The position numbers and the translations under genes are program-made. The notes under the pieces are model-generated. The model saw only the letters and a list, made by a program, of their open reading frames with translations, made no database searches and had not been told where the DNA came from. From an uncultured Eubacteriales bacterium (GTDB lineage Bacteria; Bacillota_A; Clostridia; Oscillospirales; Oscillospiraceae), in the NCBI GenBank assembly GCA_949742895.1, contig CATJRT010000254.1, forward strand, positions 1 to 27,817: a stretch of DNA of 27,817 bases, in the 5' to 3' direction. This document shows, one piece after another, positions 7,914 to 26,797 of the stretch. The number at the start of each line of letters is the position of its first letter. Within the stretch, counting starts at the first letter, position 1.

Positions 7914-7980
7914 ATCATGGACCTCCTTCCGCCCTGCCGGTATAGCCGCTCCTTTTTTATCAATATCGTCCCGTTGGCGG

Positions 7981-8056
7981 GAAAAAATAAGAAGCTGTGC
8001 CAATCGCCATGCAGATACACACACCCTAATGGGCGCCGAGGTGATTGGTACAGCTT
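7981..8056 (-). terminator. Long hairpin plus T-tract after mobA, formed by repeat copies B and C
   Basis: AAGCTGTGCCAATCGCC (7992-8008) and GGTGATTGGTACAGCTT (8040-8056) are complementary at 15 of 17 positions, with G-U at the others depending on strand. On the minus strand the stem is followed by CTTATTTTTTC, like an intrinsic terminator for the mobA operon ending at 8105. The loop is long (31 nt), so it could instead be a protein-binding or mobile-repeat structure. Confidence 0.5.
7988..8020 (-). repeat. Copy B of the inverted repeat flanking the flagellin-like gene
   Basis: On the minus strand this reads GTGTATCTGCA then TGGCGATTGGCACAGCTTCTTA. It matches copy A (4844-4881) with three substitutions and one 5-nt gap, in opposite orientation, 75 nt upstream of the flagellin-like start codon. 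Confidence 0.75.
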
Positions 8057-8104: not shown

Positions 8105-9268
8105 TCAAAGGGCAAGGCCCGCAGCGGCGTATTCCTCCATGAGCCGCTTGGCAGCGGCAAATTCCTCCGGCGTGTTGCAGTTCATCAACAGCTCCTCTGG
8201 GCCGGGGTAATCGAAGCGCCGCCAGCGCACCCTCCGCTTCAGAGCCTGGACGGAGCGCTCCCCTGCGTCCAGCATGGCGGCGATATCCCCGGCGGAGGTA
8301 CGGTCGTACACTCCTATCAGCGGCTCCTCCCGCTTCCCATGGCACAGGACGGTGACGCCGCCTGTGTGGCTCTGCCCCAGGTGGGACAGGGCTGCGGCGG
8401 GGATGAGGGGCGCGTCTACGCTCAACGCCAGACAGGCGTTGTTCCGGGCGGAGCGCAGGCAGGCGTGCAGCCCTCCCAGCGGCCCCTGGTCCCGGTATTC
8501 GTCGGGGACAGTCCGCGTACCAGGCAGGCTGGAGCAGCGCTCACCGGACAGCATAATGTCCTTGATGCCCAAGGCGTGCAGCTTGTCCACCTGCCGCTGA
8601 AGCAGGGTTCTGCCTCCCAGCCGCAGCTCCGCCTTGCTTTCCCCCATCCGCCGGGACGCGCCCCCCGCCAGCACGATGCCGGACAGGCGCTTCCGCTCCC
8701 ACCCCTGCCGGCGGATGGACAGTGCCCGCCGCGCTTCATCCAATAATGCGCCGGATATATCCAACTCCTTCGCCAAAACCTCCGCAATTTGCCCCTTGAC
8801 GGCGGTGTCCGCCGGAGCGTAGGCCAGCGCGGCGGCAGCCAGCCGCGCTCCGCAGAGCTCCAAGCCATCCGGGCCGTAACCCTCCAGGTCCAGGCCGGTT
8901 ATTTGGCCTGCCGTCCCGCCCCACAGGAAATTGCGCAGGTTTCCCTCCAATGGGAGCTGCCCGCACAGCGCAAAGCACCGGCGCAGCCATGCCACCAGGC
9001 TCTGCCAGGGGGCCGGGTCAAAACCCTCCCCCTCCTGCCGCTCCAGCTCGGCCAGCAGGGTGGGATAGCTCAGGTGCTCCAGCACCAGCACCCCCGGCTC
9101 TGTTCCCAGCACCGCCGGAAGGGGCAAACGGCCTGCCAGCGCGGCATACAGCTCCCGTTCCCGCCGCCAGTCCTCTGCGTCCGCAAAGTGCTTTTCCACG
9201 GCAGCGCGGCCCTGCCGCAGCACAGGGTAGACCTGGTTGCGGCGGCTGTAAAACGGCGTCTGGTTCAT
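8105..9268 (-). CDS. mobA: Fusion of a degenerate kinase-like domain with MobA (molybdenum cofactor guanylyltransferase)
   Basis: The 387-residue product has two parts. Residues about 195-387 are MobA-like: 'LAGGASRRMGESKAELRLGG' is the GTP-binding loop, followed by 'DQGPLGGLHA', 'LSVDAPLI' and 'EEPLIGVYD'. MobA transfers GMP from GTP to Mo-molybdopterin, making the bis-MGD cofactor used by DMSO-reductase-family enzymes. Residues 1-190 resemble an aminoglycoside-phosphotransferase or lipopolysaccharide-kinase fold: 'VEKHFADAEDWRRERELYAA', then 'GNLRNFLWGG' and 'ITGLDLEGYG'. Where such kinases have HGDxNxRNFL, this reads PLEGNLRNFL, so the catalytic Asp is missing and the domain is probably a pseudokinase. 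The ATG overlaps the preceding stop as ATGA, implying translational coupling. A Mo-enzyme operon just upstream is the obvious client. Confidence 0.85.
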   Translation of the reverse strand: MNQTPFYSRRNQVYPVLRQGRAAVEKHFADAEDWRRERELYAALAGRLPLPAVLGTEPGVLVLEHLSYPTLLAELERQEGEGFDPAPWQSLVAWLRRCFALCGQLPLEGNLRNFLWGGTAGQITGLDLEGYGPDGLELCGARLAAAALAYAPADTAVKGQIAEVLAKELDISGALLDEARRALSIRRQGWERKRLSGIVLAGGASRRMGESKAELRLGGRTLLQRQVDKLHALGIKDIMLSGERCSSLPGTRTVPDEYRDQGPLGGLHACLRSARNNACLALSVDAPLIPAAALSHLGQSHTGGVTVLCHGKREEPLIGVYDRTSAGDIAAMLDAGERSVQALKRRVRWRRFDYPGPEELLMNCNTPEEFAAAKRLMEEYAAAGLAL

Positions 9269-9717
9269 GAAGCGGTGAGTACGGCCACGTTGGCCACGTT
9301 GCGCTTGCTGTTTTCGTCGCCAAACACCACCAGCTGCGCCCCGCCCCGCTCCTGGAGCATCAGGTACACCTTGTCCGGCTGGGCGACCTCCTCCGCCGTC
9401 ACCACGGCGCTGTACGAATCTTCGGCGGTGACGGTAACTTTTCCGAAGTCCGTCACGCCCAGCTCCTCCAGCACGGCGGACAGCAGCGCACCCTCCCCGT
9501 CCACAGCCAGCTCCTCCCCCTTCCCGTTGCGGACGGTCCCGTGGATGGAGTGCAGCTCCAGCCTGGTCAGATATGCCTCCGACGCTCCGCCGTCCCACTC
9601 CACCCGGATCGTCCCTGCTGTTACCTGGGTTCGGCTGGAAAGGTGGAGTGCGGCGGCGATGGCGGTGAGCGCCGCCAGCACCAAGAGCACGATCACGATA
9701 AGCCTATCCTTTCTCAT
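9265..9717 (-). CDS. Membrane-anchored protein with sulfite-oxidase-like (molybdopterin-binding) fold, cofactor ligand absent
   Basis: The 150-residue product starts with a charged MRKDR and one hydrophobic helix (residues 6-25), followed by a soluble domain outside the membrane. Its pattern, 'GALLSAVLEELGVTDFGKVT', 'DSYSAVVTAEEV', then 'QLVVFGDENSKRNVANVAVL', resembles the central part of the oxidoreductase molybdopterin-binding family (sulfite oxidase fold). The protein contains no cysteine, so it cannot provide the usual Mo ligand and may bind another ligand or act as a structural partner. Its start overlaps the upstream membrane-protein gene by 14 nt and its stop overlaps mobA, so it belongs to that operon. 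I do not recognise a named gene; the family link is tentative. Confidence 0.6.
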   Translation of the reverse strand: MRKDRLIVIVLLVLAALTAIAAALHLSSRTQVTAGTIRVEWDGGASEAYLTRLELHSIHGTVRNGKGEELAVDGEGALLSAVLEELGVTDFGKVTVTAEDSYSAVVTAEEVAQPDKVYLMLQERGGAQLVVFGDENSKRNVANVAVLTAS

Positions 9718-10288
9718 GCGCTGGTCCCTCCCGTTGCGTATGTTTTTTCTCTCCCAGCCCCCGGCCAAGCACCGGGTCCAGCCGCCGGACGAGCTCCGCT
9801 CCCGCCAGCCCGAACACCGCCCCGGACAGGGCGGACACACACAAGTAGAGCAGCAGAACGGCGCCGCGCAGCTGGAACACGATGAGGTTTGCGGTCATGG
9901 CCGCGCAGGGGGCGGCTATGGCGTTGGACAGCACGATGCAGTCCCGCCGGGGCAGCGGGGTGCGCCGCAATGCGGCCAGGATCACGTCCATGGCCAGCCC
10001 CGGTACGATGTAGCCGACGGGGGACAGCGCCCCCATGCTGCCAACCATGCCGAAGGCCAGGGCCAGGGCGCTCTGCACCGCTCCCATGGCCGCGGCGCAG
10101 CCGAAGCGATCCACCACCGCGGCGGCGATCGCCAGGAACATCAGAGACAGGCTGGTGCCGATTCCGCCGGGTATGTGCAGCGCGTCGGTGATGAGGTTGG
10201 CGGCGGGGGCGATCAGGCGCTTGGAGAACAGCCCCAGGTCGCAGCACAGGGCCAAAAATATGAGGGTGCGCAGCCGGTTTGGTTTCAT
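9704..10288 (-). CDS. Polytopic membrane protein, ECF transporter S-component-like
   Basis: With the ATG at 10288 (GGGGG ribosome site 7 nt upstream) the product has 194 residues and about five to six hydrophobic segments. The stretches 'FSKRLIAPAANLITDALHIP' and 'GGIGTSLSLMFLAIAAAVVD', followed by 'GYIVPGLAMDVILAALRR', resemble substrate-binding S-components of energy-coupling factor importers. No ATPase or EcfT is nearby, consistent with group II systems that share a common ECF module encoded elsewhere. First gene of a three-gene overlapping set with the molybdopterin-fold protein and mobA, so a cofactor-related substrate is tempting but unproven. A Gx-transporter-type membrane protein is an alternative. 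A longer in-frame start (10348) lies inside a leader hairpin and is unlikely. Confidence 0.65.
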   Translation of the reverse strand: MKPNRLRTLIFLALCCDLGLFSKRLIAPAANLITDALHIPGGIGTSLSLMFLAIAAAVVDRFGCAAAMGAVQSALALAFGMVGSMGALSPVGYIVPGLAMDVILAALRRTPLPRRDCIVLSNAIAAPCAAMTANLIVFQLRGAVLLLYLCVSALSGAVFGLAGAELVRRLDPVLGRGLGEKKHTQREGPAHEKG

Positions 10289-10321: not shown

Positions 10322-10353
10322 GAGGCGTACCCCGAGCAGACAGGGCACGCCTC
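10322..10353 (-). terminator. Possible attenuator hairpin before the ECF-like gene
   Basis: An 11-bp stem including one G-U pair and a 10-nt loop is followed on the minus strand by CTCTTTTC. It lies 34 nt upstream of the start codon at 10288. The T-run is short, so termination may be partial or conditional. Confidence 0.45.
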
Positions 10354-10532: not shown

Positions 10533-11327
10533 TCAGTCGAACAGCCCTTTGGCCTTTGTGTAGTTGAACACCGGCCCTTCCAGGCACACATAGGTCTCGT
10601 TGATCTTGCAGTGGCCGCACTTGCCCACAGCGCAGGACATCTTCCGCTCAAAAGACACCCAGATTTTATCCTCTTCCGCCCCGTTTTTCACACATTCCAG
10701 CGCCGCGAAGCGCATCATCACCGGCGGGCCCACAATGGCGATATTATAGTCCGCAAACTCTCTGAAGGGGACCTTGGGGATATGGGCGGTGACCATCCCC
10801 GTCTCGAAGCCGGGGGCGGAGGAAGCGTCCAAGGTGTAGATGGTGTGGAATTTCTCCTGAGCGTGGAACTTCTCCAGCTCCTCGGTGAACAGCACGCAGT
10901 CGATATCTTTGAACCCTGCGATGAGCCAGAGGCTTTCGATCTCCTCCGGATGCCGGCAGAAATGGTTCAGCATGGTTTTCACTGGGGCCATGCCCGTGCC
11001 GCCGCAGATGACCACCAGGTCTTTGCCCTTGAACTGCTCGATGGGGAAGGGCTTGCCGTAGGGCCCCCGCATGAACAGCATATCCCCGCTCTGGAGGCCG
11101 AACACCCCCTGGGTGAGCCGCCCCACCTTGCGGATGGTGAACTCCACGTAGCCCTCTCCCTTGCCGCTGACGGAGATGGGGGCCTCCCCCACCTTGGGGA
11201 TGGATAGCTGGAAGAACTGGCCGTGCCGGGTCTCGCCGTGATATTCCACCCGGAAGGTGTACTCGGCCTTCGTCTCCTTCAACACGCTGAGGATCTTGTG
11301 GGGCTCGGGCAGCATGATGTTCTCCAT
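10533..11327 (-). CDS. AsrB-like FAD/NAD(P)-binding [2Fe-2S] electron-transfer subunit
   Basis: The 264-residue product has the layout of anaerobic sulfite reductase subunit B and related ferredoxin-NADP-reductase-type proteins. A flavin-binding beta-barrel (residues about 10-98) contains 'GDMLFMRGPYGKPFP'. A nucleotide-binding domain contains 'LVVICGGTGMAP' (104-115) and 'IAIVGPPVMMRF' (197-208). A C-terminal cluster site has Cys232, Cys237, Cys240 and Cys248 within 'SCAVGKCGHCKINETYVC'. It should accept hydride from NAD(P)H and pass electrons to the Fe-S subunits. The ATG at 11327 is 1 nt after the stop of the AsrA-like fusion. No siroheme-containing AsrC follows, so sulfite is unlikely to be the direct substrate; the partner is more likely the molybdopterin enzyme of this operon. 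Confidence 0.88.
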   Translation of the reverse strand: MENIMLPEPHKILSVLKETKAEYTFRVEYHGETRHGQFFQLSIPKVGEAPISVSGKGEGYVEFTIRKVGRLTQGVFGLQSGDMLFMRGPYGKPFPIEQFKGKDLVVICGGTGMAPVKTMLNHFCRHPEEIESLWLIAGFKDIDCVLFTEELEKFHAQEKFHTIYTLDASSAPGFETGMVTAHIPKVPFREFADYNIAIVGPPVMMRFAALECVKNGAEEDKIWVSFERKMSCAVGKCGHCKINETYVCLEGPVFNYTKAKGLFD

Positions 11328-11328
11328 G

Positions 11329-12978
11329 TCAGTTGTCCCCCTTTCCCGCTTCCAGCGCGTCCGTCAGGCCGTTCACCGCATCCAGATAGTCGATGTCCTT
11401 GGGGCAGCGGTCGATGCACCGCCCGCAGCCCACGCACATATGCGCCCCGCCAAAGCGCTCTTTGAAGTCGTACATTTTGTGGAGCACCTTGAAGCGCATA
11501 TTGGCCCCCTGGGTCTTGCGGGCCATGCCCCCTCCGGCGGTCTGGGTGAAGTCCCGAAGCATACAGCCCGACCACACCCGGCGGCGTTCGCCGTCAGGAC
11601 TGGTCTCATTGTAGATGACGTCCACCGTGTCGAAGCAGGAACAGGTGGGGCAAACCGTATTGCACCCGCCGCAGGCGATGCAGTCCTCGTCGAACTGCTT
11701 CCAGTAATCCAGCCCACACACCTGGCCCAGCTCCTCCCGGCCTTCGATGCGGGGCAGACGGGCGGAGCGGCGGTTCTCTTGCACGAATTCGGGGGTAAAA
11801 GCAATGGGCACCTCGTCCTGGAAGTAGGGCAGCAGTTCCTCGTCACAAATCTCCATCAGCGCGCAGATGTCGTCGATGCGCACAGCGGCAGCGTAGTCCC
11901 ACGCCTCGTTGGTGCCCATGGACGCGCAGAAGCAGTTGTCGAAGCCCTCCCGGCACTCCAACAGCACCGGCTTCACCGTTTCCCTCATACGGGCGTAATA
12001 CAGGTCGGGTTGGCCGTTGTGGAGGAAGATATCGTCCAGCCGCCGGATGGCGTTGAGGTCGCAGGGGCGGACGAACAGCAGGATATCTCTGCCGTCGTCC
12101 AGCTCCTTTTCCGCGCAGCTCTCGCCGTTGAAGTAGAACATGGTCTGGGAGATGGGGTAAAACACCTCTTTGGCAGAGAAGTGAGACTTTTCTTTGTATT
12201 CGATATCAGCCAGCGTGTCGATCTCGCCATAGCGGATGAGGTCGCCGCCTCCGGGGCCCCGGCCGGGGAAGCGCTTGGGAGCGAAGATACGGTATTTCGC
12301 CTTGAGCCGGGTAAAGATGGGGTCTATCCGGTCCGCCCGAACGGAAAAGCTCCGGGCCTGCCGTATTTCGCCGGACATGAGGGCGGACTGGTAATCCCCC
12401 TCCAGCGACAGGAAAGCGGCGGTGATGCGGCCCACGGCCTTGTAGAAGTCTACCCGGGCGCACTTCTCGATGTCGGCCACAAAGGCGGGCACCCAGTTCA
12501 ACAGGTGGGAATTGAGGAAGTCTGACTGCTCTTCCGCCGTGCTGTTTTCGATGAGCCACGCTATGAATTCCAGCTCCAGGGCCAGATGGTCCTCGTGGAG
12601 GCCGTCAGCGCTCCCGTCCCTGCCCAGGCCCTTTTCGGCATACCGGCGGGACACGTCCTCCCAAGCGTCTTGCATGAAGATACGCTTTGGGCTGGTGTAG
12701 ACCGACTCGCAGGGGATGGCAGCGGAGCCGTCCGCCGAGCCGGCGGCCAGGAACACAGTGGCGTAGTCCACTGCCAGCTCCTCCAGGGCGTTTTCACCGC
12801 AGTGGTCCAGGTAATCTTTCAGCAGGGTATAGCCCGCTGCCAGACCGCCCTCCGCCTGGGGCAGGGCCAGCGCTTTCAATTTGTCCAGCAGCGTCCCGTC
12901 CACCTCGGCGCGGTAGAGTCGGGAGAGCAGGCGGTAAAACCGGGCCCGGCTCCGGTCATTGGTTTTGGAGATCATCAT
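11329..12978 (-). CDS. Fusion of a TorD-type chaperone with an AsrA-like 4Fe-4S electron-transfer protein
   Basis: The 549-residue product joins two known modules. Residues 1-195 are all-helical and match the TorD/DmsD molybdoenzyme chaperones, with 'CESVYTSPKR' (90-99) and 'HEDHLALELEFIAWL' (128-142). These chaperones normally bind the apo-catalytic subunit until its cofactor is inserted. Residues from about 215 are AsrA-like: 'EKSHFSAKEVFYPISQTMFY', 'LFVRPCDLNAIRRLDDIF', then two ferredoxin sites, Cys433/436/439 plus Cys443/446, and Cys515/518/521/525. This part would relay electrons between the AsrB-like flavoprotein and the Mo enzyme. The start overlaps the upstream stop as ATGA. The chaperone module strongly ties the electron-transfer arm to the molybdoenzyme. 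Confidence 0.87.
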   Translation of the reverse strand: MMISKTNDRSRARFYRLLSRLYRAEVDGTLLDKLKALALPQAEGGLAAGYTLLKDYLDHCGENALEELAVDYATVFLAAGSADGSAAIPCESVYTSPKRIFMQDAWEDVSRRYAEKGLGRDGSADGLHEDHLALELEFIAWLIENSTAEEQSDFLNSHLLNWVPAFVADIEKCARVDFYKAVGRITAAFLSLEGDYQSALMSGEIRQARSFSVRADRIDPIFTRLKAKYRIFAPKRFPGRGPGGGDLIRYGEIDTLADIEYKEKSHFSAKEVFYPISQTMFYFNGESCAEKELDDGRDILLFVRPCDLNAIRRLDDIFLHNGQPDLYYARMRETVKPVLLECREGFDNCFCASMGTNEAWDYAAAVRIDDICALMEICDEELLPYFQDEVPIAFTPEFVQENRRSARLPRIEGREELGQVCGLDYWKQFDEDCIACGGCNTVCPTCSCFDTVDVIYNETSPDGERRRVWSGCMLRDFTQTAGGGMARKTQGANMRFKVLHKMYDFKERFGGAHMCVGCGRCIDRCPKDIDYLDAVNGLTDALEAGKGDN

Positions 12979-13604
12979 AGCTTGCGGCCTCCTTTCCGGT
13001 GGGCGCTGTGTTCCACGCAGTCCTGGGGCAGCACGTCCACCCAGTCATCATGGCGCAGGATGTAGCGGACGGTGGGACCGTTGCCGAAGTCCCGCAGGGC
13101 GTGGATGTGGGCGGGAGCGACCTCCGCCAGGAGCCTGGACACCTCGCTGTCCGGGTCGCCTAAATCGCCGTAGTGCAGGGCGGAGCTGGAGCAGTTGCGC
13201 ACGCAGGCGGGAATGTCCCCCGCCTCCCGGACCTGGGCGCACAGGGTACACTTGTCCGCCACCCGCAGTTCCTTGTTGGAGTGGATCATGTCGTAGGGGC
13301 AGGCTCTCTTACAGCTTCCGCAGCCGATGCACATGGCCTGGTCCACCCGGATCACGCCGTCCGCCCCGTCCTTATAGCACGCTCCGGTGGGGCACACCTG
13401 GACGCAGGACGGATTTTCGCACTGCTGGCACATGGCGGGCAGGAAATACATCTGGAGATTAGGGTAAGTACCGTTGGGGCCAATGGTACACACCTTGGTG
13501 CGGCCCTCGCCCAGGGCCACGGCGTTCTCCAGCTTGCAGGCCACTTGGCAGCCCTTGCAGCCGATGCAGCGGTCCAGGTCCACCACAAATGTCATCTGTC
13601 TCAT
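12975..13604 (-). CDS. Four-cluster ferredoxin subunit of a molybdopterin oxidoreductase (DmsB/PsrB/HydN type)
   Basis: The 209-residue protein carries sixteen cysteines placed as four [4Fe-4S] sites: Cys13/16/19/23, Cys59/62/67/71, Cys92/95/98/102 and Cys119/122/134/138. This is the classic beta subunit of DMSO-reductase-family enzymes and forms an electron wire next to the catalytic subunit. It begins MRQMTFVVDLDRCIGCKGC, with no export signal, so the complex is cytoplasmic. The start overlaps the catalytic subunit stop (ATGA), and its own stop overlaps the next gene. The usual membrane-anchor gamma subunit is absent; the AsrA/AsrB-like genes stand in its place. Confidence 0.93.
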   Translation of the reverse strand: MRQMTFVVDLDRCIGCKGCQVACKLENAVALGEGRTKVCTIGPNGTYPNLQMYFLPAMCQQCENPSCVQVCPTGACYKDGADGVIRVDQAMCIGCGSCKRACPYDMIHSNKELRVADKCTLCAQVREAGDIPACVRNCSSSALHYGDLGDPDSEVSRLLAEVAPAHIHALRDFGNGPTVRYILRHDDWVDVLPQDCVEHSAHRKGGRKL

Positions 13605-16147
13605 ACGCGCACCTCCTCAGTGGGACCGGCGGGGTTGGGCAGCCAGGGCCGGAAATCCTCCGGGTCCAGCCACACCCCGGCGGGAGCGCCCTCCGCAGGG
13701 CTCACCCGCACCTGGAATGCCCGCAGGGTATAGGTGCCCACCACGTCGTTGAAGGGAGCGGTGGCCTTGGTGAGCATATTCACGTTCATCTCTTTCCATC
13801 CGTGGGTGGGGGTGTTCAGGGTCTCCGGGTTCCAGAACCGCTCCATGTACACCGTGCCAGGGTTGATGCCCTGAGTGACCTTAGCCACCGCCTGGGTCTT
13901 GCCCCGTTTGGACTCCACCCAAACCCAGCCGCCGTCCTCGACGCCGTATTTCTCCGCCGCTGTGGGATGGATCCACAGCTCGGGGGCCGGGTACATCTCA
14001 CGCAGCCAGGGGATGTTGCGCAGGGTGTTGTGGTGGAAGTAGGGCACCCGGCCTCCAGTGAGCACCAGGGGGTACTCCTCCGCAATCTCGCTGCCCGGCA
14101 GGGGGCTTTCCACCGGCTCCATGTAGTAGGGCAGGGGGTCGTAGTCCTCATCGGCGGGCTCCAGATCGATGGGGCTGAAGGGCCGGCCTGTGCGGCCAAG
14201 CTCGATCATGCTCTCCACATACAGCTCACACTTTTTGCTGGGTGTAGGAAACCCGGCGGGTCTGCCGCCGTTGTTCGGGTCTGGCTGCTTATAGACGTAG
14301 TAAGAACGCCACTGGTCCTTTGGCAAGTATTCGATGGGGGCATTGGCGGCGAACTCCTTCCAGCTCATGCCCAGCCGGTTCACCCAATGGTCCAGAAATT
14401 CCTCCATGCTGTCCCAGTAGGGCAGGTCGTGGCCCATATAGTCCGCATCGAAGGCGCGGGCGCAGCCCTCATGGCCAAGCTCGCCGCAGCGCCTGGCCAG
14501 CTTGGACCAGAACAGGGTCTCGTCCATAGTTTCCCACAGGTGGGTACACTGCTGCCGGGCCACCAGGGTGTTGCAGGTCTCAACCAGCATATCCGTCTCC
14601 AGCCACTCCTGGGCGGGGATGAGGATGTCGGCGTAGGCGGAGAAGGAGGTGGGGTACATATAGACATGGACGATGAAGTCCAGCTTGTGGATGGCCTGTT
14701 CCCACCGCTGGCTGTCGGCGGTGGCCCCCAGCTTGTTGCCAGAGCGGTCGATCCACACCCGGGGCTGGTACGGCTCTCCGGTGAGGATGGCCTCCAGGAT
14801 GCTGGAAGGATGGCCCGCCCACCAGATGCCCAGCCCCTTGTGGGCGCGGCCTCCCAGCCGCTTTTTGAGCTGCTCCGGGGGCAGGCGGTCCGCCGCCACG
14901 GGGACGGGGTAGTTGGGCATATCGAAGCACCCGCTGGTGCGGAAGCGCTGGAGCAGGGCGCCTGGGCACTCCACATTGCCCATAAGCAGGTCGATGGTGG
15001 CTGCGGCCATGGCGGCCTGGACAGAGTTGGGGGTTTGGTCGGTGGCCACGCCAATGGACAGGCCACTGGGCAGATTGTCGGTGAATACCCGGATGGCCTG
15101 CTCGATCTTGCCCGCGTCCAGCCAGCACACTTCTGCGGCCTTTTCCAGGGTGTACTCCTCCACCCGCTCCCACAGGAGCTGCCAGCCTGTCTTGCATTGC
15201 CGTCCATTTACCGTGAACTCACCCTCCAGAGCAGGGTCCAAGGCATCGTTCCACGGGTATTCCAGCGGCTGGGGGGAGCCAGTCTTTTTGTCCCACACCA
15301 TGAAGGTGTCCGGCTGGCCGTCCGCACCCTTCCAGGGCCGCAGGAACAGCTTGGTCTCCACATCTACCAGGTAAGGCAGGTTGGTCCATTTCATCACAAA
15401 GTCGGCGTCGTACAGCTTGTTGTCCAGTATGTAGCGGATCCACGCCAGTTGCAGGGCCACGTCGCTGCCGGGCCGGATAGGGAGCCACACGTCCGCCTTG
15501 GCGGCGTCCGGGGTAAACCGTGGGTCCACCACCACGGTTTTCCCGCCGCGAGCCCGCAGGTCGGCCACCATGCCGCCGCCGGAGGCGGGACAGGACCAGG
15601 CCGGGCCGGTGCCCCACAGCACAAGAGCTTTAATGGGGGTGTCGTCGGGGAAGTACAGCTCCAGGGCGTTAGAGTCGGCGATGCTGGGGTCTCCCCCGCC
15701 GTACATCATGGTGTAGGCCAGTACACGGGGCAGGTAGCACTGGGCACACCCCGGCTCGAACCAGTTGGGGGTGCCGAAGATGTTGCAGAACCGGGCGATG
15801 GACCAGATCTCTGGATTCCCGCCCCCACCAGTGGAGCAGAACACCGCCTCCGCGCCGTACTTTTCCCTCGTCTCCATCAGTTTCTTGGCGATGGCGTCCA
15901 GCGCCTCATCCCAGGAGATGCGCTTCCACTGGCCGCTGCCCCGGGGCCCCACCCGCTTCATGGGGTACTTGTTCCGGTTTGGGTGGTACAGCGCCTGGAT
16001 GCCGGACAGGCCCTTGGCGCACATACGGCCCTTGCTCATGGGGTCCACCGGGTTGCCCCGCAGGCTCACCACCCGCCCGTTTTTTACCGTGGCCAGCACG
16101 CCGCAGTTGGCAATGCAGGCCCGACAGGCGGTCTTGACCACCCGCAT
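13601..16147 (-). CDS. Molybdopterin oxidoreductase catalytic subunit (DMSO-reductase superfamily)
   Basis: With the ATG at 16147 (AAGGAG five nt upstream) the protein has 848 residues. The N-terminus holds the [4Fe-4S] site Cys8-x2-Cys11-x3-Cys15-x27-Cys43, followed by AKG. 'GTGPAWSCPASGGG' and 'KTVVVDPRFTPDAAKADVWL' are cofactor-binding stretches, and 'GNVECPGALL' is typical of the third domain. The C-terminal bis-MGD-binding beta-barrel starts near 'YPLVLTGGRVPYFHHNTLRN'. The Mo or W ligand is probably a cysteine in 'EPGCAQCYLPR' (Cys134 or Cys137). There is no Tat signal, so it acts in the cytoplasm. Substrate is unknown; the family includes thiosulfate and polysulfide reductases, acetylene hydratase, transhydroxylases and catechol dehydroxylases. 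A TTG at 16252 overlapping the regulator stop is an alternative start adding 35 residues. Confidence 0.93.
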   Translation of the reverse strand: MRVVKTACRACIANCGVLATVKNGRVVSLRGNPVDPMSKGRMCAKGLSGIQALYHPNRNKYPMKRVGPRGSGQWKRISWDEALDAIAKKLMETREKYGAEAVFCSTGGGGNPEIWSIARFCNIFGTPNWFEPGCAQCYLPRVLAYTMMYGGGDPSIADSNALELYFPDDTPIKALVLWGTGPAWSCPASGGGMVADLRARGGKTVVVDPRFTPDAAKADVWLPIRPGSDVALQLAWIRYILDNKLYDADFVMKWTNLPYLVDVETKLFLRPWKGADGQPDTFMVWDKKTGSPQPLEYPWNDALDPALEGEFTVNGRQCKTGWQLLWERVEEYTLEKAAEVCWLDAGKIEQAIRVFTDNLPSGLSIGVATDQTPNSVQAAMAAATIDLLMGNVECPGALLQRFRTSGCFDMPNYPVPVAADRLPPEQLKKRLGGRAHKGLGIWWAGHPSSILEAILTGEPYQPRVWIDRSGNKLGATADSQRWEQAIHKLDFIVHVYMYPTSFSAYADILIPAQEWLETDMLVETCNTLVARQQCTHLWETMDETLFWSKLARRCGELGHEGCARAFDADYMGHDLPYWDSMEEFLDHWVNRLGMSWKEFAANAPIEYLPKDQWRSYYVYKQPDPNNGGRPAGFPTPSKKCELYVESMIELGRTGRPFSPIDLEPADEDYDPLPYYMEPVESPLPGSEIAEEYPLVLTGGRVPYFHHNTLRNIPWLREMYPAPELWIHPTAAEKYGVEDGGWVWVESKRGKTQAVAKVTQGINPGTVYMERFWNPETLNTPTHGWKEMNVNMLTKATAPFNDVVGTYTLRAFQVRVSPAEGAPAGVWLDPEDFRPWLPNPAGPTEEVRV

Positions 16148-16248
16148 GTCGTCTCCTTGCTTTTCAGCCGCAGCCTTTGGGGTCAGGCCGGGGCTGTCCA
16201 GACCGGGGATACCGCCGATGCGGATGGCGCTAAGATAGCTTGCTGCGT

Positions 16249-16974
16249 TCAATCTGTTCCGCTCCCTTCTGTGTTGGCCATGATGGACCGGATGTGGTCC
16301 ATCATGGCCTGTTCAGCCCGCCGGCCGTCCCCGGCGGCGATGGCGTCCAGCACCCTCCGGTGGTCCGCCGTCGATTCGTAGTACTTCTCCCGGTCCTTGC
16401 CGTACACTGCCTCGTACAGCCCCAGGTCGGAGCCTGCGGCGTGGACGATGTTGACGAAATGGATATAGAACTGGTTGTGGGAGGCGGCGGCGCACTGGAG
16501 GTGGAACAGGTCGTCCAGCGCCAGCATATCGCCTAAACCCTTCTCTCCTTGGACGTAGATGGGGACGGCCTCCTCCATCTCGTCCAGCACTGACCGCAAC
16601 ACTTCCACATCCTCGGGGGAGGCGTTTTGCGCCGCCAGCCGTGCGGCGGTACCCTCTACCTCCATCCGGGCTTCGAACAGGTTGCCGGACAGGCTGTCGT
16701 CCAGCATGGTGCAGGTGTGGAGGATGCGTCCCAGTGTCCTGGGGGAGAACGCCGCCACATAGGTGCCGTTTCCCTGCCGTTTTTCCAAAATGCCCACCAC
16801 GCACAAAGCGCTGACGGCCTCCCGCAGGGGGACGCGGGAGATGCCCAGGGAAACGGCAAAGTCCCGCTCGGAAGGCAGGCGGTCTCCGGGCCGTAGCTCC
16901 CCCCGGTCGATGCGGTTCAAAATATAGTCCACCACCTGCTGGCTGATGCTGGTGCGCTGAATCGCAGCCTCCAT
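16249..16974 (-). CDS. GntR/FadR-family transcriptional regulator (FCD ligand domain)
   Basis: The ATG at 16974 lies 6 nt after AAAGGAGG and gives 241 residues. Residues 8-75 form the GntR winged helix: 'GELRPGDRLPSERDFAVSLG', then 'ISRVPLREAVSALCVVGILE' and 'RQGNGTYV'. The remainder is an all-helical FCD domain with 'LDDLFHLQCAAASHNQF' and 'DHRRVLDAIAAGDGRRAEQA', which in this family binds a carboxylate or acyl-type effector, often with a metal held by His/Asp. Its stop at 16249 overlaps a possible TTG start of the molybdoenzyme, so it heads that operon. A palindromic TGGTATTACCA site overlaps its own -10 region, indicating autorepression, and a near copy lies before the dehydratase operon. 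Confidence 0.92.
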   Translation of the reverse strand: MEAAIQRTSISQQVVDYILNRIDRGELRPGDRLPSERDFAVSLGISRVPLREAVSALCVVGILEKRQGNGTYVAAFSPRTLGRILHTCTMLDDSLSGNLFEARMEVEGTAARLAAQNASPEDVEVLRSVLDEMEEAVPIYVQGEKGLGDMLALDDLFHLQCAAASHNQFYIHFVNIVHAAGSDLGLYEAVYGKDREKYYESTADHRRVLDAIAAGDGRRAEQAMMDHIRSIMANTEGSGTD

Positions 16975-16985
16975 ATCTATCCTCC

Positions 16986-17016
16986 TTTGGTATATTGGTA
17001 TTACCAATATACCAAA
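16986..17016. promoter_or_regulatory. 31-bp perfect palindromic operator of the GntR regulator
   Basis: Fifteen bases at 16986-17000 (TTTGGTATATTGGTA) are repeated exactly inverted at 17002-17016 with one central base. The core TTGGTATTACCAA fits the TGGT-n3-ACCA operators of FadR-type GntR regulators. It spans the -10 and start region of the promoter for the regulator and sits just upstream of the Shine-Dalgarno. Confidence 0.88.
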
Positions 17017-17034
17017 GACGTTTCGGCTTGTCAA
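17006..17034 (-). promoter_or_regulatory. Promoter of the gntR-molybdoenzyme operon
   Basis: On the minus strand TTGACA (17034-17029), a 17-nt spacer and TATATT (17011-17006) form a near-consensus sigma-A promoter. The -10 is inside the palindromic operator, so a bound regulator would block RNA polymerase. Start codon is 32 nt further at 16974. Confidence 0.8.
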
Positions 17035-17055: not shown

Positions 17056-17097
17056 AAAAAAATACAGCCTCCGAACATGGCTGTTTGGAGGCTGTAT
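17056..17097 (-). terminator. Intrinsic terminator of the dehydratase-acyl-CoA dehydrogenase operon
   Basis: ATACAGCCTCC (17062-17072) pairs perfectly with GGAGGCTGTAT (17087-17097) around a 14-nt loop. On the minus strand the stem runs into TTTTTTT (17062-17056). It begins 5 nt after the acyl-CoA dehydrogenase stop and separates this operon from the gntR promoter. Confidence 0.88.
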
Positions 17098-17102
17098 CGT
17101 CA

Positions 17103-18245
17103 TTATTTTAGAAGCTGGCCGGAAATGACCATCTGCTGCACCTGGCTGGTGCCCTCGTAGATGCTGGTGATCCGGGCGTCCCGGTAAAAACGCTCTACCT
17201 TGTATTCCTTGATATGGCCGTCCCCGCCGTGAATCTGCACGGCCTTGTACGCCACCCGGTTGCACATCTCGGCGGCAAACAGCTTGCTCATGGCGCACAG
17301 CTTGGAGCTGTCCGGGTCCCCCGCGTCCTTGCGCACTGCGGTGGAGTAGACCAACTGCCGCGCCGCTTCGATCTCCGTGGCCATGTCCGCAATCATGAAG
17401 CTGATGCCCTGGAATTTGGCAATGGGTTTGCCGAACTGCCTGCGCTCCTTGGCGTATTTGATGGACTCGTCCAGGCAGCCCTGGGCAATACCCACCGCCT
17501 GAGCCGCCATGCCCAACCGTCCACCGTCCAGGGTTTTCATGGCGGTGGCGAAGCCGCGGTGCAGGGGGCCCAGCAGATCGCTCTTGTGGACCCGCACATC
17601 CTCCAAAATTACGTCGCTGGTTGGGTAGCCCACAATGCCCATTTTATGCTCCGGCTTGCCACAGGACACGCCGGGCAGCTTCATGTCCACGATGAACATA
17701 GAGATGCCCTTAGAGCCCTTTTGGCCCAGGTCGGTTCGGGCATACACGATGGCATAGTCGGCAAAGGGCGCGCCGGAGATAAAGGTCTTGCGGCCGTTGA
17801 GCACAAAGCAGTCCCCGTCCGGCACGGCGGTGGTGAGGGTGCCTCCAGCGTCGGAGCCCGCCCCCGGCTCGGTGAGGGCGAAGGCGATGATCTTTTCCCC
17901 CTTGGCGCAGGGGGTGAGGTACTTCTGCTTCTGCTCCTCGGTGCCGCAGAACAGCAGCGGCCCGCCGCCCAGGGAGTTGGAGGTGTTGGCGTAGATGGAC
18001 AGCACCGGGGACACCCGGGCGAACTCCTCCACCATCATGGCGTATTCCAGCGAGCCGCAGCCGCTCCCGCCGTACTGCACGGGAATTTTCACGCCCATGA
18101 AGCCATACTTTGCCATTTTGTTGTGGATATCCCGGTCAAATTCGCCGGTCTCCTCCAGCCGGTCCAGCAGCTCGCCGGTGAACTCCGTCTCCGCGAACTC
18201 CCGGTACAGTTTGCGCAGTAGCGCTTGTTCCTTTGTCAATATCAT
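17103..18245 (-). CDS. Acyl-CoA dehydrogenase (enoyl-CoA reducing, AcdB-type role)
   Basis: The 380-residue flavoprotein has normal family length. 'FALTEPGAGSDAGGTL' and 'NGRKTFISGAPFADYAIVYA' bind FAD and substrate, 'ERRQFGKPIAKFQGISFMIA' lies in the helical C-terminal domain, and Glu364 in 'SIYEGTSQVQQ' is at the usual catalytic-base position. In Stickland reductive pathways a partner of this kind reduces the 2-enoyl-CoA made by the dehydratase to the saturated acyl-CoA, with electrons from an electron-transferring flavoprotein. It is the last gene of the activator-dehydratase operon, 15 nt after the dehydratase beta subunit and directly before a terminator. No etfBA genes follow, unlike the leucine operon of Clostridioides difficile, so ETF must come from elsewhere. 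Confidence 0.92.
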   Translation of the reverse strand: MILTKEQALLRKLYREFAETEFTGELLDRLEETGEFDRDIHNKMAKYGFMGVKIPVQYGGSGCGSLEYAMMVEEFARVSPVLSIYANTSNSLGGGPLLFCGTEEQKQKYLTPCAKGEKIIAFALTEPGAGSDAGGTLTTAVPDGDCFVLNGRKTFISGAPFADYAIVYARTDLGQKGSKGISMFIVDMKLPGVSCGKPEHKMGIVGYPTSDVILEDVRVHKSDLLGPLHRGFATAMKTLDGGRLGMAAQAVGIAQGCLDESIKYAKERRQFGKPIAKFQGISFMIADMATEIEAARQLVYSTAVRKDAGDPDSSKLCAMSKLFAAEMCNRVAYKAVQIHGGDGHIKEYKVERFYRDARITSIYEGTSQVQQMVISGQLLK

Positions 18246-18260
18246 GTCCCCGCTCCTCTC

Positions 18261-19379
18261 TTATTCCAGCAGGTCCCGGAAGGTCTCGATCACGGTACGG
18301 GCCTGCTCGTAGCTCACAATTTGCCGGTCCACTTCCACCGTGGCCACAGCCAGTCCCGCCGCCTCGCAGGTGCGCTTGAGCAGCGGGTAATCGAACTCCT
18401 CCGGGTCGCAGAATTTGGTCATCACGATGAGCACGCCACGGGCGCCCCTGGCCCTGGCCTCGTCCGCCGTCATAGCCAGTCGCTTTTTGTCCTGGTCGTA
18501 GAGCACGGAGCAGCCGTCCATGGCGCAGAATTTCCGGGCCAACCGCTCTAACGGTGCGCCCTCCTCCGGGGCATCGGTGCGGTACTGGCGGCTCTCCGCC
18601 GCCACGTCGTCGGCCACCACCTGCATCCCGTACTCGTCCAGCAGGGCGGTTAGCCCCGGTGCGCTGGCCAGGATTCCGCTCACCGCGATGGGGATGCGGT
18701 CCTGTCCGGGGGCCTGGGCCTCCAGCCCGGCAATGAGCTGCTCCACCAGGGCGGTATGCTCCTCCTTCAGCATAAACCAGGCGCTTTTGAACACGTCTGC
18801 CCGCCGAGCGGGCAACACCTCCGGGTGCCGCGCCAGCGCTTCGGACAAGCGCCGCATGGCGGCGTTGTGGGCGTTATACACTGCGATGGACTTTGCCAGC
18901 GTCTCCTCCGAGAACTGCGCCCCGGTCGCCCGTTCCAGATCGGCAATGACCCGCCGGTAGCCCGCCAAGGTGAAATCCACGGCGTACTCCGGCTTGCGGT
19001 TCTGGGGGTAGGTCATGGGGACGAAGGGGATGGCGGGCACGGCGTACTTCCAGTTCTGGCCCAGCACCTTCAGGCTGTCGCAGAGAGAGGGGATAACGAT
19101 GGCGGACGCGCCGTCATAGGTTCCCTTCATACCCAGCTCCACAATGGACTGGACGATGGAGCAGAGGAAGGCGGGAAAGTACCGCTTGGCCCCCTCCAGT
19201 TCCACGTCGCCGCCCCAGACCCCCATGGGGACCAGCCCCATGGCGTGGACGATCTCCTCTGGGGTGTAGACCGGCGCGGTGAGCACCACCTTTTTCCCCT
19301 GGGCCAGATAGGCGTCCATCTGCCTGCGGGGATTCCGGGCCACGGCGGAGAATTGCTCCAGCAGCTCGTTCACGCTCAT
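18261..19379 (-). CDS. 2-hydroxyacyl-CoA dehydratase, beta (HgdB/HadC/FldC-like) subunit
   Basis: The 372-residue product belongs to the HgdB/BcrB family. Conserved stretches include 'APVYTPEEIVHAMGLVPMGV', 'AFLCSIVQSIVELG', 'IPSLCDSLKVLGQNW' and 'MTKFCDPEEFDYPLLK', each with a cysteine that can ligate the subunit's [4Fe-4S] cluster. With the alpha subunit it removes water from (R)-2-hydroxyacyl-CoA by a ketyl-radical mechanism after one-electron activation. Its ATG immediately follows the TAA of the alpha subunit with no gap, so expression is coupled and probably equimolar. Substrate chain (aliphatic or aromatic) cannot be told from sequence by eye. Confidence 0.9.
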   Translation of the reverse strand: MSVNELLEQFSAVARNPRRQMDAYLAQGKKVVLTAPVYTPEEIVHAMGLVPMGVWGGDVELEGAKRYFPAFLCSIVQSIVELGMKGTYDGASAIVIPSLCDSLKVLGQNWKYAVPAIPFVPMTYPQNRKPEYAVDFTLAGYRRVIADLERATGAQFSEETLAKSIAVYNAHNAAMRRLSEALARHPEVLPARRADVFKSAWFMLKEEHTALVEQLIAGLEAQAPGQDRIPIAVSGILASAPGLTALLDEYGMQVVADDVAAESRQYRTDAPEEGAPLERLARKFCAMDGCSVLYDQDKKRLAMTADEARARGARGVLIVMTKFCDPEEFDYPLLKRTCEAAGLAVATVEVDRQIVSYEQARTVIETFRDLLE

Positions 19380-20615
19380 TTACAGTCCCTCCTTTCGCGC
19401 TTCCATAATCTCGGTAAGGCCCTGGACCCGTGTTTCATACTGGGCCTCGGAGAAGTTGCGGGGGTCGGCCTGGTCGCCGTCGAAGGAGGCTACCGGGATA
19501 TCGCATACCTCGCCGATCTGGCGGCTCATCTCGTACATGAAGCCACTCCACAGCTTGCAGGAGCGGTTGGTGTGGACCAGCAGGCCCTCCACATGGTTGT
19601 CCTTGCACAACTTCACCCGCTTGTCACGGGAGTACTCCAGGTTGATGGCGTTGGGCACCTTGCAGTAGGCCCGGCACATATCGTCGAAATCCTTGTACAC
19701 GAAGCCGAAGGCGTCGGCATAGATGGTAGTGACCATATTGATGCCCCGGCTCTTCAGGCCGGTGGAGGTACACCGCAGCCAGGGCCAGCAGGCGATGCCC
19801 TCGAACATAATGCGGTGCTTCTCCTCGCCCCGGAAGGTGGACTCCCCTTTTTCGTGGTTTTCCTCGTACTCCTGCAGCAGGGTTTCCATGGCCTCGGCAG
19901 CCTCCTTCTTGCCACGGGCGGTGACCATCACCGCCATGTGGTTTAGCAGGTCAAAGCCGTTGAAGGGGGAGGGGGTGTACCGGGCAGTGGCGGTGGCGGC
20001 CAGCCATGCGTGGCTGGTGCGGCCGGAGTACTCCATGACCTCCTTGTACTTCTCCTCGTCCCACTTCTTGCCGGTCAGCTTTTCAAGCTGATGGATGGCG
20101 TCCCAGAATTGGGCGCGGACGTAGGCCACCTCTGCGTCAGACACCTCATAGTCCGGGTTAAAGGGGATGTCGATCATGATGAGGGGGATATCCAGCTCAC
20201 GGGACAGGTTTTCGTACCATTTTATCATGCAGTTGCAGATATTGTTGCAGCACAGCAGGAAGTCGGGCTGGGGCATATCCTGCTCCGGACATTCCTTGAT
20301 CTTGGCGTAGGCCAGGCTGATGCGGGCATAGGCGCAGATGTCGTTGGAGTAGCCGTCCGCCTCGCTGATCTCGCACATCCTGGCTCCGGCTCCCCGTGCG
20401 GCGATGCCTGCGGCCTGGTTCTCCGGATAGACCACCGCCAGCCCCAGGGTTTCGGGTATCTCCACCGGGAAGTTGCTGGCGCACCAGCCCACCGGCTCCC
20501 CACGAACTTTGGCGGCCTGGGCGTCGGAATACGCCTTGGCGGCAATCTGGCCCAGCTTGTACTTGGCGGAATTGGGGTCGGGGGGTGGACGGTGCTTTTT
20601 GATTTCTTCAGACAT
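19380..20615 (-). CDS. 2-hydroxyacyl-CoA dehydratase, alpha (HgdA/HadB/FldB-like) subunit
   Basis: The ATG at 20615 follows AAAGGAGG by 7 nt and gives 411 residues; a longer frame upstream would overlap the activator gene. The family signature is visible in 'VGWCASNFPVEIPETLGLAV' near residue 43, 'LLCCNNICNCMIKWYENL' near 120, and 'LLVHTNRSCKLWSGFMYEM' in the C-terminal third. These hold cluster-ligating cysteines. It pairs with the adjacent beta subunit. The neighbours (activator upstream, acyl-CoA dehydrogenase downstream, CoA-transferase divergent) match the reductive branches described for leucine (had genes) and phenylalanine (fld genes) in Clostridia. Confidence 0.9.
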   Translation of the reverse strand: MSEEIKKHRPPPDPNSAKYKLGQIAAKAYSDAQAAKVRGEPVGWCASNFPVEIPETLGLAVVYPENQAAGIAARGAGARMCEISEADGYSNDICAYARISLAYAKIKECPEQDMPQPDFLLCCNNICNCMIKWYENLSRELDIPLIMIDIPFNPDYEVSDAEVAYVRAQFWDAIHQLEKLTGKKWDEEKYKEVMEYSGRTSHAWLAATATARYTPSPFNGFDLLNHMAVMVTARGKKEAAEAMETLLQEYEENHEKGESTFRGEEKHRIMFEGIACWPWLRCTSTGLKSRGINMVTTIYADAFGFVYKDFDDMCRAYCKVPNAINLEYSRDKRVKLCKDNHVEGLLVHTNRSCKLWSGFMYEMSRQIGEVCDIPVASFDGDQADPRNFSEAQYETRVQGLTEIMEARKEGL

Positions 20616-20650
20616 GGGAACTCCTCCTTTATATGTAACAGTTTCAATGC

Positions 20651-21424
20651 TCAGGCTGTGGTTTTGCGGTATGCGCAGAGGGCCGCGCCCATGGCTCCGA
20701 AGAGCTGGGCGTGCCCGGAGAGCAGAATCTCGCAGTCCAGGCTGCGCGACAGCGCATTGTGTACGCCGCTGTTGCGGGCCACGCCGCCGCTCATGCACAC
20801 GGCGGGGACCACCCCCATGCGTTTAGCCAGCGCCGCCACCCGGCCCGCTACGCTGTCGCAGATGCCTGCCACCAGCTCGGGCAAAGGTGTGCCGTTGGCA
20901 AGCTGGCTGATAACCTCGCTCTCGGCAAACACGGTACAGGTGCTGGAAATAGCAGCGGACCGCTCCGCCCGGGCAGCATAGTCACCCAGCCCGTCCACAG
21001 GGAGCTGGAGGATATTGGCCATCACGTCCAGAAACCGGCCTGTTCCGGCGGCGCACTTGTCGTTCATTAAAAACTCCCGCATCCGCCCTTTTTCGTCCAG
21101 AGAAATCACCTTGGCGTCCTGCCCGCCGATGTCAATAACCGTGCGCACTTGGGGAAAAACGAAGTGTGCACCCAGGGCGTGGCAGGTCAGCTCGCTGGCC
21201 TGATACCGGGCCAGGGGGCAGCGGGCGCGGCCATAGCCGGTGGCGGCCACGGCCGCCATATCCTCCAGGGTCAGGCCGGTGGACCACACCTGCTCCAGCG
21301 CCAGGTCCGGACCTTTGGTGCCGATGCCGCCGGTGACGATGGAGCTGGCGGCAAGGCGTTCTCCATCCTCCAGCACCACGCATTTGGATGTGGTTGAGCC
21401 GATGTCGATTCCCAGAGTATACAT
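20651..21424 (-). CDS. Activator ATPase of 2-hydroxyacyl-CoA dehydratase (HgdC/HadI/FldI-like)
   Basis: The 257-residue protein is of the BadF/BadG/HgdC ATPase family (ASKHA fold). Residues 4-15 'LGIDIGSTTSKC' form the phosphate-1 loop, 'DIGGQDAKVI' (98-107) is phosphate-2, and 'MSGGVARNSG' (211-220) is the adenosine motif. Cys124 in 'NDKCAAGTGRF' and Cys163 in 'STCTVFAESEV' are the two ligands each subunit gives to the bridging [4Fe-4S] cluster of the homodimer. It uses ATP to push one electron from ferredoxin or flavodoxin into the dehydratase, and is extremely oxygen-sensitive. First gene of the minus-strand operon, with a perfect promoter and a GntR-type site upstream; AAGGAGG ribosome site. 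Confidence 0.95.
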   Translation of the reverse strand: MYTLGIDIGSTTSKCVVLEDGERLAASSIVTGGIGTKGPDLALEQVWSTGLTLEDMAAVAATGYGRARCPLARYQASELTCHALGAHFVFPQVRTVIDIGGQDAKVISLDEKGRMREFLMNDKCAAGTGRFLDVMANILQLPVDGLGDYAARAERSAAISSTCTVFAESEVISQLANGTPLPELVAGICDSVAGRVAALAKRMGVVPAVCMSGGVARNSGVHNALSRSLDCEILLSGHAQLFGAMGAALCAYRKTTA

Positions 21425-23095: not shown

Positions 23096-23161
23096 AAGAA
23101 ACGCACAGATTGCTTGGGCAGTCTGTCAATGCGAAACGAGGAACAGGAGCAGAGAGCATCA

Positions 23162-26772: not shown

Positions 26773-26797
26773 CAGCCGCAGAACAGGGGGGATTTCC

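Follow-up and report, generated by a model that had tools for sequence, protein, structure and literature searches.

What does the electron-input arm of a sulfite reductase do behind the gene of a molybdopterin enzyme? The question is raised by an operon in a 27,817-nucleotide stretch of DNA from an uncultured Eubacteriales bacterium of the Oscillospiraceae (assembly GCA_949742895.1, contig CATJRT010000254.1); we call this whole stretch the window. A minus-strand run of five genes at 10533-16974 encodes, in order, a GntR regulator with an FCD domain, a catalytic molybdopterin oxidoreductase (MopB), a ferredoxin-type subunit, a fusion of a TorD chaperone domain to AsrA, and AsrB. The operon itself encodes neither AsrC nor a membrane subunit or anchor. 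We propose that, on balance, it probably specifies a cytoplasmic NAD(P)H:acceptor oxidoreductase with a molybdenum (or tungsten) active site, which arose once, by a swap of electron donors.

An earlier note, made from the sequence alone, had described MopB, a four-cluster ferredoxin, TorD::AsrA-like and AsrB-like genes in a tight array from which AsrC and a membrane partner are missing. Pfam and NCBIfam searches and direct reading of the junctions confirm the array, and the absence of both partners holds for the operon. The extent given there, 10533..16147, is right in its gene set but not in its start and size: the operon reaches 16974 and gains the regulator. We place the start of MopB at TTG 16252 instead of ATG 16147, because relatives carry about 40 extra N-terminal residues that resemble the stretch upstream; and because this TTG overlaps the stop of the regulator gene as TTGA, we count five genes. 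The junctions read, in order, TTGA, ATGA, ATGATG and a 1-nt gap. A purine-rich stretch precedes each start, and direct reading found no internal stop in any of the five frames.

The features of the operon are listed in Table 1. MopB belongs to the dimethyl sulfoxide (DMSO) reductase (MopB) superfamily, having the FS0 motif, the Pfam domains Molybdopterin, Molydop_binding and Molybdop_Fe4S4, and a cysteine at the ligand position. AsrA and AsrB both reach equivalog level (TIGR02910, 376.6 bits against a cut-off of 323.15, over residues 211-543 of the fusion; TIGR02911, 332.0 bits against 288.6). The TorD domain is all-helical in the predicted model, with TorD and DmsD as structural matches. The best structural match of the AsrA part is the beta subunit of sulfhydrogenase I (9nez_B), in a TorD::AsrA model with a mean predicted local distance difference test (pLDDT) score of 74.1, and AsrB matches the gamma subunit (9nez_C) in the PDB. 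The core of sulfhydrogenase I is a [NiFe] hydrogenase. Because the Pyrococcus structure (9nez) has an AsrA/AsrB-like NADPH arm on a different catalytic core, it gives a precedent for the module. Compared with the AsrABC sulfite reductase, the operon shares AsrA and AsrB but lacks AsrC, carries the arm on MopB and fuses AsrA to TorD; AsrABC itself has not been purified, according to PMC10949509. The name 'anaerobic sulfite reductase subunit AsrA', which source annotations give to such fusions, would wrongly suggest sulfite reduction.

Electrons would pass from NAD(P)H to the FAD and [2Fe-2S] cluster of AsrB, to the two [4Fe-4S] clusters of AsrA, and through the four clusters of the ferredoxin subunit and FS0 to the bis-molybdopterin guanine dinucleotide (bis-MGD) metal of MopB. 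There an organic acceptor would be reduced, and the TorD domain fused to AsrA would insert the cofactor. We are fairly confident that the direction is reductive. Gene content and conservation thus support the wiring that the earlier note had put forward, a putative cytoplasmic NAD(P)H-dependent molybdenum or tungsten enzyme that would re-use the electron arm of sulfite reductase.

We therefore asked how widely the arrangement is kept. A scan of genome contigs with an 18-sequence MopB alignment gave 117 relatives, the best 80 of which were retained as loci. By tblastn mapping and reading of the N termini, these were divided into 62 loci classed as no-Tat (Tat, twin-arginine translocation) and 18 classed as membrane-type. 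Subtracting five no-Tat loci whose contigs end too early leaves 57 that can be read, and in 51 of these full-length AsrA and AsrB follow MopB and the ferredoxin subunit. Because so many relatives share this order, it is not a product of chance; the search for MopB beside AsrA and AsrB that the earlier note had suggested thus succeeded. Recurrent neighbours in the 62 no-Tat loci are MoeA (9), MoaA (8), MocF-like genes (6), LysR regulators (19) and the operon's GntR regulator (6). Phage and plasmid collections yielded only distant MopBs (below 60% identity) and pieces of AsrB, ferredoxin or MopB.

To place the catalytic subunit, we built a FastTree phylogeny of 128 sequences and 836 columns, rooted on FdhF, which took in the window and 60 no-Tat MopBs (L041 and L073 were left out). 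These form one clade with support 1.0, nested within Tat-type relatives. Three Tat-type enzymes from Sporomusa are the first to join it (0.997). Others, from Sporomusa, Acidobacteriota, Deferribacteres and Telmatospirillum, surround it at lower support. Next outward come Coriobacteriia relatives of about 50% identity (0.99), two of them in genome G064, which we take to be Eggerthella lenta DSM 2243. This wider group, the Dadh clade and the pair L106/L133 are united at 1.0. The Dadh clade comprises eight sequences, seven from G064 and one more, and excludes the window MopB with support 1.0. Acetylene hydratase joins next (0.87), leaving PsrA, DmsA and FdhF further out; for acetylene hydratase and PsrA the tree used partial sequences, and five of the seven Dadh-group sequences are cut before the C-terminal end. 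Dopamine dehydroxylase was located in G064 through a primer printed in PMC7028382 (three of nine primer matches also carry the second primer), and the seven Dadh-clade sequences there equal in number the catechol dehydroxylases, three plus four, that PMC11887054 names for E. lenta DSM 2243. The wider group is therefore closest to Dadh-type catechol dehydroxylases, then to acetylene hydratase, and is a member of neither. The earlier note would have given way had the catalytic subunit fallen into a characterised group; the tree puts it next to, not inside, the Dadh type, and away from PsrA and DmsA. Its nearest solved structure is acetylene hydratase (2e7z), followed by thiosulfate/polysulfide reductase, and its best NCBIfam match is PhsA, at 277.5 bits against a cut-off of 694. 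The two G064 enzymes (L165, L166) are of the Tat/NrfD type, with NapG/NapH-like partners and membrane-spanning regulators; a literature search by their approximate locus numbers found no paper on either. Another MopB (L108/L126, G010:C8:49152-51464) has a single in-frame TGA and is possibly a selenoprotein.

The nesting of the clade within Tat-type enzymes is matched by a relic at the N terminus. A twin-arginine motif is present in 15 of the 18 membrane-type loci (14 by pattern and L074 by eye; L067, L069 and L070 were not readable) and absent from all 61 no-Tat loci that could be read. Many of these retain a remnant resembling 'DFLxAT..GL', such as NKKDFLSATNITGI, compared with NRRQFLKATAVTGI in Sporomusa. 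Conversely, tblastn mapping found no match to AsrA or AsrB in the 18 membrane-type loci, where NrfD occurs in eight by clustering (its family confirmed for L042) and NapG/NapH-like ferredoxins are frequent. In L057, L069, L070 and L071 TorD directly follows the ferredoxin subunit, and in the first AsrAB branch (L043, L045, L047) TorD and AsrA are unfused. One catalytic lineage whose electron donor was swapped is the natural reading of these sequences. A single, Tat-exported and membrane-linked ancestor would have lost its Tat signal and membrane arm and gained AsrAB; the TorD–AsrA fusion would have followed that gain, and a few lines would later have lost AsrAB.

The active site appears to have come through this change intact. 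Cys172 aligns with the metal-ligand cysteine of acetylene hydratase and PsrA and is kept in every group but DmsA, which has a gap there, in support of the cysteine-type ligand predicted earlier. Together with Gln171 it is invariant in the clade's groups, which are 60 no-Tat, 11 Tat-type and 8 Coriobacteriia sequences and 5 of a more distant Coriobacteriia group (L125 and the duplicates or paralogues L092, L093, L094 and L098 were excluded). The loop E166-P-G-x-A-Q-C172-Y-[LM]-P-R is invariant or nearly so in these groups, on both sides of the rewiring. His740 is present in 59/60, 11/11, 8/8 and 5/5 sequences of the four groups and in no other group, a comparison to which just two of the seven Dadh-group sequences extend. 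Because the loop and His740 are common to both sides, we suggest that the chemistry stayed the same while the donor changed. The catalytic aspartate of acetylene hydratase (2e7z), Asp13, which comes after the second FS0 cysteine, is replaced by Ile47 in all 60 no-Tat sequences.

Which acceptor might such an enzyme reduce? Our tentative preference is for a polyhydroxylated aromatic that loses a hydroxyl group reductively, because clade MopBs co-occur with pyrogallol hydroxytransferase-type genes and are clustered with them in two Lachnospiraceae. Of the options left by the earlier note, aromatic dehydroxylation is thus the favoured one, and reduction of a sulfur or N-oxide compound less so. Pyrogallol hydroxytransferase (4v4c) is itself a molybdenum enzyme of polyhydroxybenzenes. 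We reject the idea that the operon MopB is this enzyme: true homologues of 4v4c (1279-1734 bits) are present in E. oxidoreducens and Parasporobacterium in addition to the operon MopB, and the large subunit of 4v4c is not among the 53 PDB sequences that match the operon MopB at E<=0.001. Ten of 26 genomes with a clade MopB match the Parasporobacterium hydroxytransferase query (E<=1e-100), some at just ~36-46% identity. Among 397 genomes of one Lachnospiraceae family (that of G157), nine have a hydroxytransferase-type gene (E<=1e-200; in one of them, G390, at only 44-45% identity), 11 have a clade MopB and six have both. All of these fall within the 149 moaA-positive genomes, and within those 149 the co-occurrence gives a Fisher p of 2.6e-6, or 0.009 after six genomes earlier picked through MopB are dropped, kinship being uncorrected in both values.

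The two genes also lie close together. Within 25 kb of one Parasporobacterium contig come, in order, a UbiX-family gene, one resembling a symporter, the hydroxytransferase, a gene of ferredoxin type where that enzyme's small subunit would be expected, molybdenum cofactor (Moco) genes and the operon. The UbiX-family protein scores 253 bits with its nearest special model, hydroxyarylic acid decarboxylase subunit B, whose cut-off is 290. In G157 the hydroxytransferase, MoaA and the operon lie within 17 kb, and in the other genomes of the family with both genes they are on different contigs. Lachnospiraceae such as G001, G003, G157 and G158 have at least two hydroxytransferase-type genes, in identity classes of ~83, 63 and 53% to that of Parasporobacterium. 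A more specific and rather speculative proposal is that the operon encodes a reductive, NAD(P)H-linked polyhydroxybenzene dehydroxylase that works with the pyrogallol-phloroglucinol hydroxytransferase or sets its cosubstrate pool. The cosubstrate of the hydroxytransferase is 1,2,3,5-tetrahydroxybenzene, whose removal or formation might, on the same speculative footing, be the reaction. Where no close hydroxytransferase was found, as in the window's relatives, the enzyme might then be a stand-alone NAD(P)H sink acting on a related phenol. If this proposal is true, gallate and tannin breakdown in gut Clostridia would be tied directly to NAD(P)H balance.

Several observations weigh against the enzyme, origin and substrate that we propose. 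The structure prediction for MopB is poor (mean pLDDT 59.9). In the tree, the wider group including the Gordonibacter sequence L125 has a support of just 0.68, and its order relative to the Dadh group one of 0.25. The division into no-Tat and membrane-type loci rested partly on the absence of AsrAB from the 18. Six of the 57 readable no-Tat loci are without complete AsrAB, so the arm is not always retained: in L001, L005 and L008 AsrA is cut off ahead of its Fe-S part and there is no AsrB, L015 and L041 have no AsrA left, and L029 has an AsrA fragment only. Of the 51 full loci, 24 have TorD and AsrA as a fusion, 26 have them as separate genes and one has no TorD, although assembly frameshifts may have raised the count of separate genes. 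Apart from Moco genes and regulators, the neighbourhood is not conserved. As for the substrate, the co-occurrence was computed without control for relatedness and the hydroxytransferase link is seen in Lachnospiraceae, while among the window's close relatives (G148-G154) a homologue occurs in 2/7 and is distant, at 44-46%. The NAD(P)H arm was perhaps lost later and jointly in the three truncated loci, where AsrA ends at a nearly identical point; genes for an old-yellow-enzyme-type flavoenzyme and a URO-D-type protein come next in L008. A link to O-demethylation through URO-D-type genes was set aside: they occur in 7/62 no-Tat loci (1.05 Mb), compared with 195 copies in ~77 Mb (25 genomes), a difference of ~2.6-fold between counts made by differing detection.

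Could AsrAB instead serve a siroheme AsrC encoded elsewhere, its position after MopB being incidental? In 24 genomes with a clade MopB, many of them metagenome bins, AsrB passes its cut-off in 23 and lies within the MopB operon in 22. AsrC passes in five, and seven more have weaker matches to its model (87-142 bits, cut-off 324.1), a point against our wiring; but in each of the five another AsrB lies <=40 bases from AsrC, and a model search found no AsrC over the cut-off in the other 19. The gene overlaps and the TorD::AsrA fusion also tie the arm to the MopB operon. We regard an AsrC elsewhere as the true partner, the objection that the earlier note had foreseen, as extremely improbable; re-use of AsrAB without AsrC is borne out by the 19 genomes and by the 51 loci that keep MopB with AsrAB.

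Accepting that the arm belongs to MopB, other acceptors can be weighed. A catechol dehydroxylase proper would use NAD(P)H in place of menaquinol to remove the para hydroxyl of a single catechol of dietary or microbial origin. This fits the grouping of MopB with Dadh-type sequences, the partners of its membrane relatives, which match the Dadh kinds of PMC11887054 (FeS subunit, anchor, TorD, NapG/NapH-like ferredoxins), and the presence of the operon in Eubacterium ramulus and E. oxidoreducens (L030, L031), which degrade phloroglucinol according to PMC10470551. However, MopB lies outside the Dadh clade (1.0), is only ~35% identical to Dadh over 326 residues, and has a ligand loop, EPGxAQCY[LM]PR, unlike that of the Dadh group; moreover, the E. 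lenta DSM 2243 list in PMC11887054, as far as available, apparently omits the two clade enzymes. We consider this unlikely, if the strongest of the competitors. A cytoplasmic reductase of thiosulfate, polysulfide, DMSO or trimethylamine N-oxide is rather less likely still. The membrane relatives share the MopB-FeS-NrfD layout of Psr and Phs, PhsA is the best NCBIfam match and AsrAB originates in sulfur metabolism, but the PhsA score stays below its cut-off, PsrA and DmsA lie elsewhere in the tree, and the ligand is a cysteine that has no aligned residue in DmsA. A viologen-linked molybdenum enzyme of Proteus (HVOR) reportedly interconverts 2-oxoacids and (R)-2-hydroxyacids, and the operon could encode a similar oxidoreductase supplying the 2-hydroxyacyl-CoA dehydratase pathway next to it. 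Genes like HadBCI and one for an acyl-CoA dehydrogenase do adjoin the operon, and its regulator is nearest to the LldR and GlcC models (under their cut-offs), with a TTGGTnnnACCAA core that, we presume, resembles LldR/GlcC operators. Yet the Had genes are a separate unit behind a hairpin, and across the 80 loci tblastn mapping matched HadB and HadC in none, HadI in one and the dehydrogenase in two. An HVOR-like reductase was accordingly dropped as first choice and is in our view very doubtful, and the 2-hydroxy-acid pathway that the earlier note had used as a hint to function does not serve as one.

How might the operon be controlled? The promoter and inverted repeat of Table 1 precede the regulator gene; the repeat is likely to be the operator for the operon's own GntR/FCD regulator, which would make the operon substrate-inducible. 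The core TGGTAwTACCA lies 31-42 bases before the regulator in 7/7 loci examined, including the window (starts of the relatives estimated from alignment), and TTGACA is also present upstream of the regulator gene in six relatives inspected. The regulator's nearest NCBIfam model is LldR, at 103.8 bits, under the cut-off of 311 (scan from 16896 down). Sigma-70-like sites number five in 13.7 kb, against 2.6 (sd 1.8) in shuffled sequence; terminator-like hairpins show no excess (nine against 9.9). The stem at 17062..17097 had been listed for the plus strand by the automatic terminator scan.

Table 1. Features of the operon and its borders (window coordinates)
Feature	Position	Strand	Basis
Hairpin with T-run between the HadBCI/dehydrogenase operon and the regulator promoter	17062..17097	-	Inverted repeat; T-run read on minus strand
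Sigma-70-like promoter, TTGACA-17-TATATT, TG ahead of second hexamer	17006..17034	-	11/12 matches
Perfect 16-bp inverted repeat over the -10 box, core TTGGTAATACCAA	16985..17017	.	100% complementary, halves 1 nt apart
GntR/FCD (FadR-type) regulator, 241 aa, ribosome-binding site AGGAGG, stop overlapping MopB start (TTGA)	16249..16974	-	Pfam GntR + FCD
Catalytic MopB, 883 aa, TTG start, FS0 [4Fe-4S] Cys43/46/50/78, metal ligand Cys172, N-terminal Tat-peptide relic	13601..16252	-	Pfam, alignment
Ferredoxin subunit, 209 aa, four [4Fe-4S] motifs, DmsB/NrfC type	12975..13604	-	Motifs counted by eye
TorD/NarJ-type chaperone domain of fusion, residues 1 to ~205	12364..12978	-	Pfam Nitrate_red_del
AsrA domain of fusion, residues ~206-549, two [4Fe-4S] motifs	11329..12363	-	TIGR02910
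AsrB, FAD/NAD(P)H-binding and [2Fe-2S] subunit, 264 aa	10533..11327	-	TIGR02911; Pfam NAD_binding_1, DHODB_Fe-S_bind
Terminator-like hairpin after asrB, 13 pairs + T-run	10322..10353	-	Hairpin scan

Other genes of the window were also read. At 8105-10288 (-) is a MobA-like nucleoside triphosphate transferase, whose N-terminal part looks like a kinase without matching any Pfam family, beside a small membrane protein that has no Pfam match and resembles an energy-coupling factor S component; both recur near the operon in L002, and MobA also in L003. At 17103-21424 (-) and 21685-22926 (+) lie genes for a dehydratase like HadB/HadC/HadI, for a dehydrogenase resembling acryloyl-CoA reductase and for a type III CoA transferase, likely a reductive 2-hydroxyacid branch, with a 12/12 promoter at 21504-21476 and a hairpin at the end. 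The remainder comprises a 1025-residue protein whose sole match is a weak one to the flagellin N-terminal domain (4947-8024, -), a type III restriction endonuclease (176-3319, +) and type I HsdM, HsdS and HsdR (23114-27817, +), HsdR being cut by the window end.

How does the proposed enzyme compare with known systems? The Eggerthella-type catechol dehydroxylases (Dadh, Hcdh, Cadh; PMC7028382, PMC11887054), its nearest group in the tree, share FS0, the Cys ligand, an FeS subunit and TorD with the operon, and NrfD and NapG/NapH-like partners with its membrane relatives; deletion of dadhB or dadhD-H abolished dopamine dehydroxylase activity, whereas deletion of dadhC did not (PMC11887054). Unlike them, the operon MopB stands outside their clade, has another ligand loop and an NAD(P)H arm, and lacks a Tat signal and anchor. 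The Gordonibacter-type Dodh and Cldh (PMC7028382) are likewise soluble, with an FeS partner and no Tat signal, but their catalytic subunits are without the FS0 motif (PMC11574389) that the operon MopB has, and the descriptions available, on which this comparison rests rather than on the tree, mention no NAD(P)H arm. Ucdh, the urolithin C dehydroxylase of Enterocloster bolteae (PMC12771579), is also a cytoplasmic molybdenum enzyme of a gut Clostridium and uses NADH; it belongs, however, to the xanthine oxidase family, with FAD and [2Fe-2S] subunits and a catalytic core unrelated to the operon MopB. Acetylene hydratase shares the Cys ligand and FS0, but has an aspartate where the operon has Ile47, and a hydratase needs no electron arm. 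Pyrogallol hydroxytransferase is linked to the operon by co-occurrence and, in two genomes, by clustering. A MopB gene beside asrAB had already been noticed: in a Margulisbacteria region (PMC6349859) an unclassified molybdopterin oxidoreductase lies by asrA and asrB, a proposed oxidoreductase module as in the operon, but in a setting of hydrogenase, Mrp subunits and cooF, and its MopB is likened to ours by description only. That account, in the part available, makes no mention of the clade, of a fusion with TorD, of a Tat relic or of a swapped donor.

Catechol dehydroxylases of Coriobacteriia, many of them membrane-bound, were until recently held responsible for the dehydroxylation of phenols in the gut, and the Clostridial exception is a homologue of xanthine oxidase (PMC12771579). 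To these the operon adds, from many gut Clostridia and some lactobacilli, a lineage of the DMSO reductase family that neighbours the catechol dehydroxylases and has a soluble NAD(P)H arm. Because cultures exist of several hosts (L012, L030, L031, L046), the substrate is directly testable. Overall, these data suggest that the operon records a possible route from a membrane-linked molybdoenzyme to a cytoplasmic redox sink, in which the active site was kept, the export signal decayed and the anchor may have been exchanged for AsrAB.

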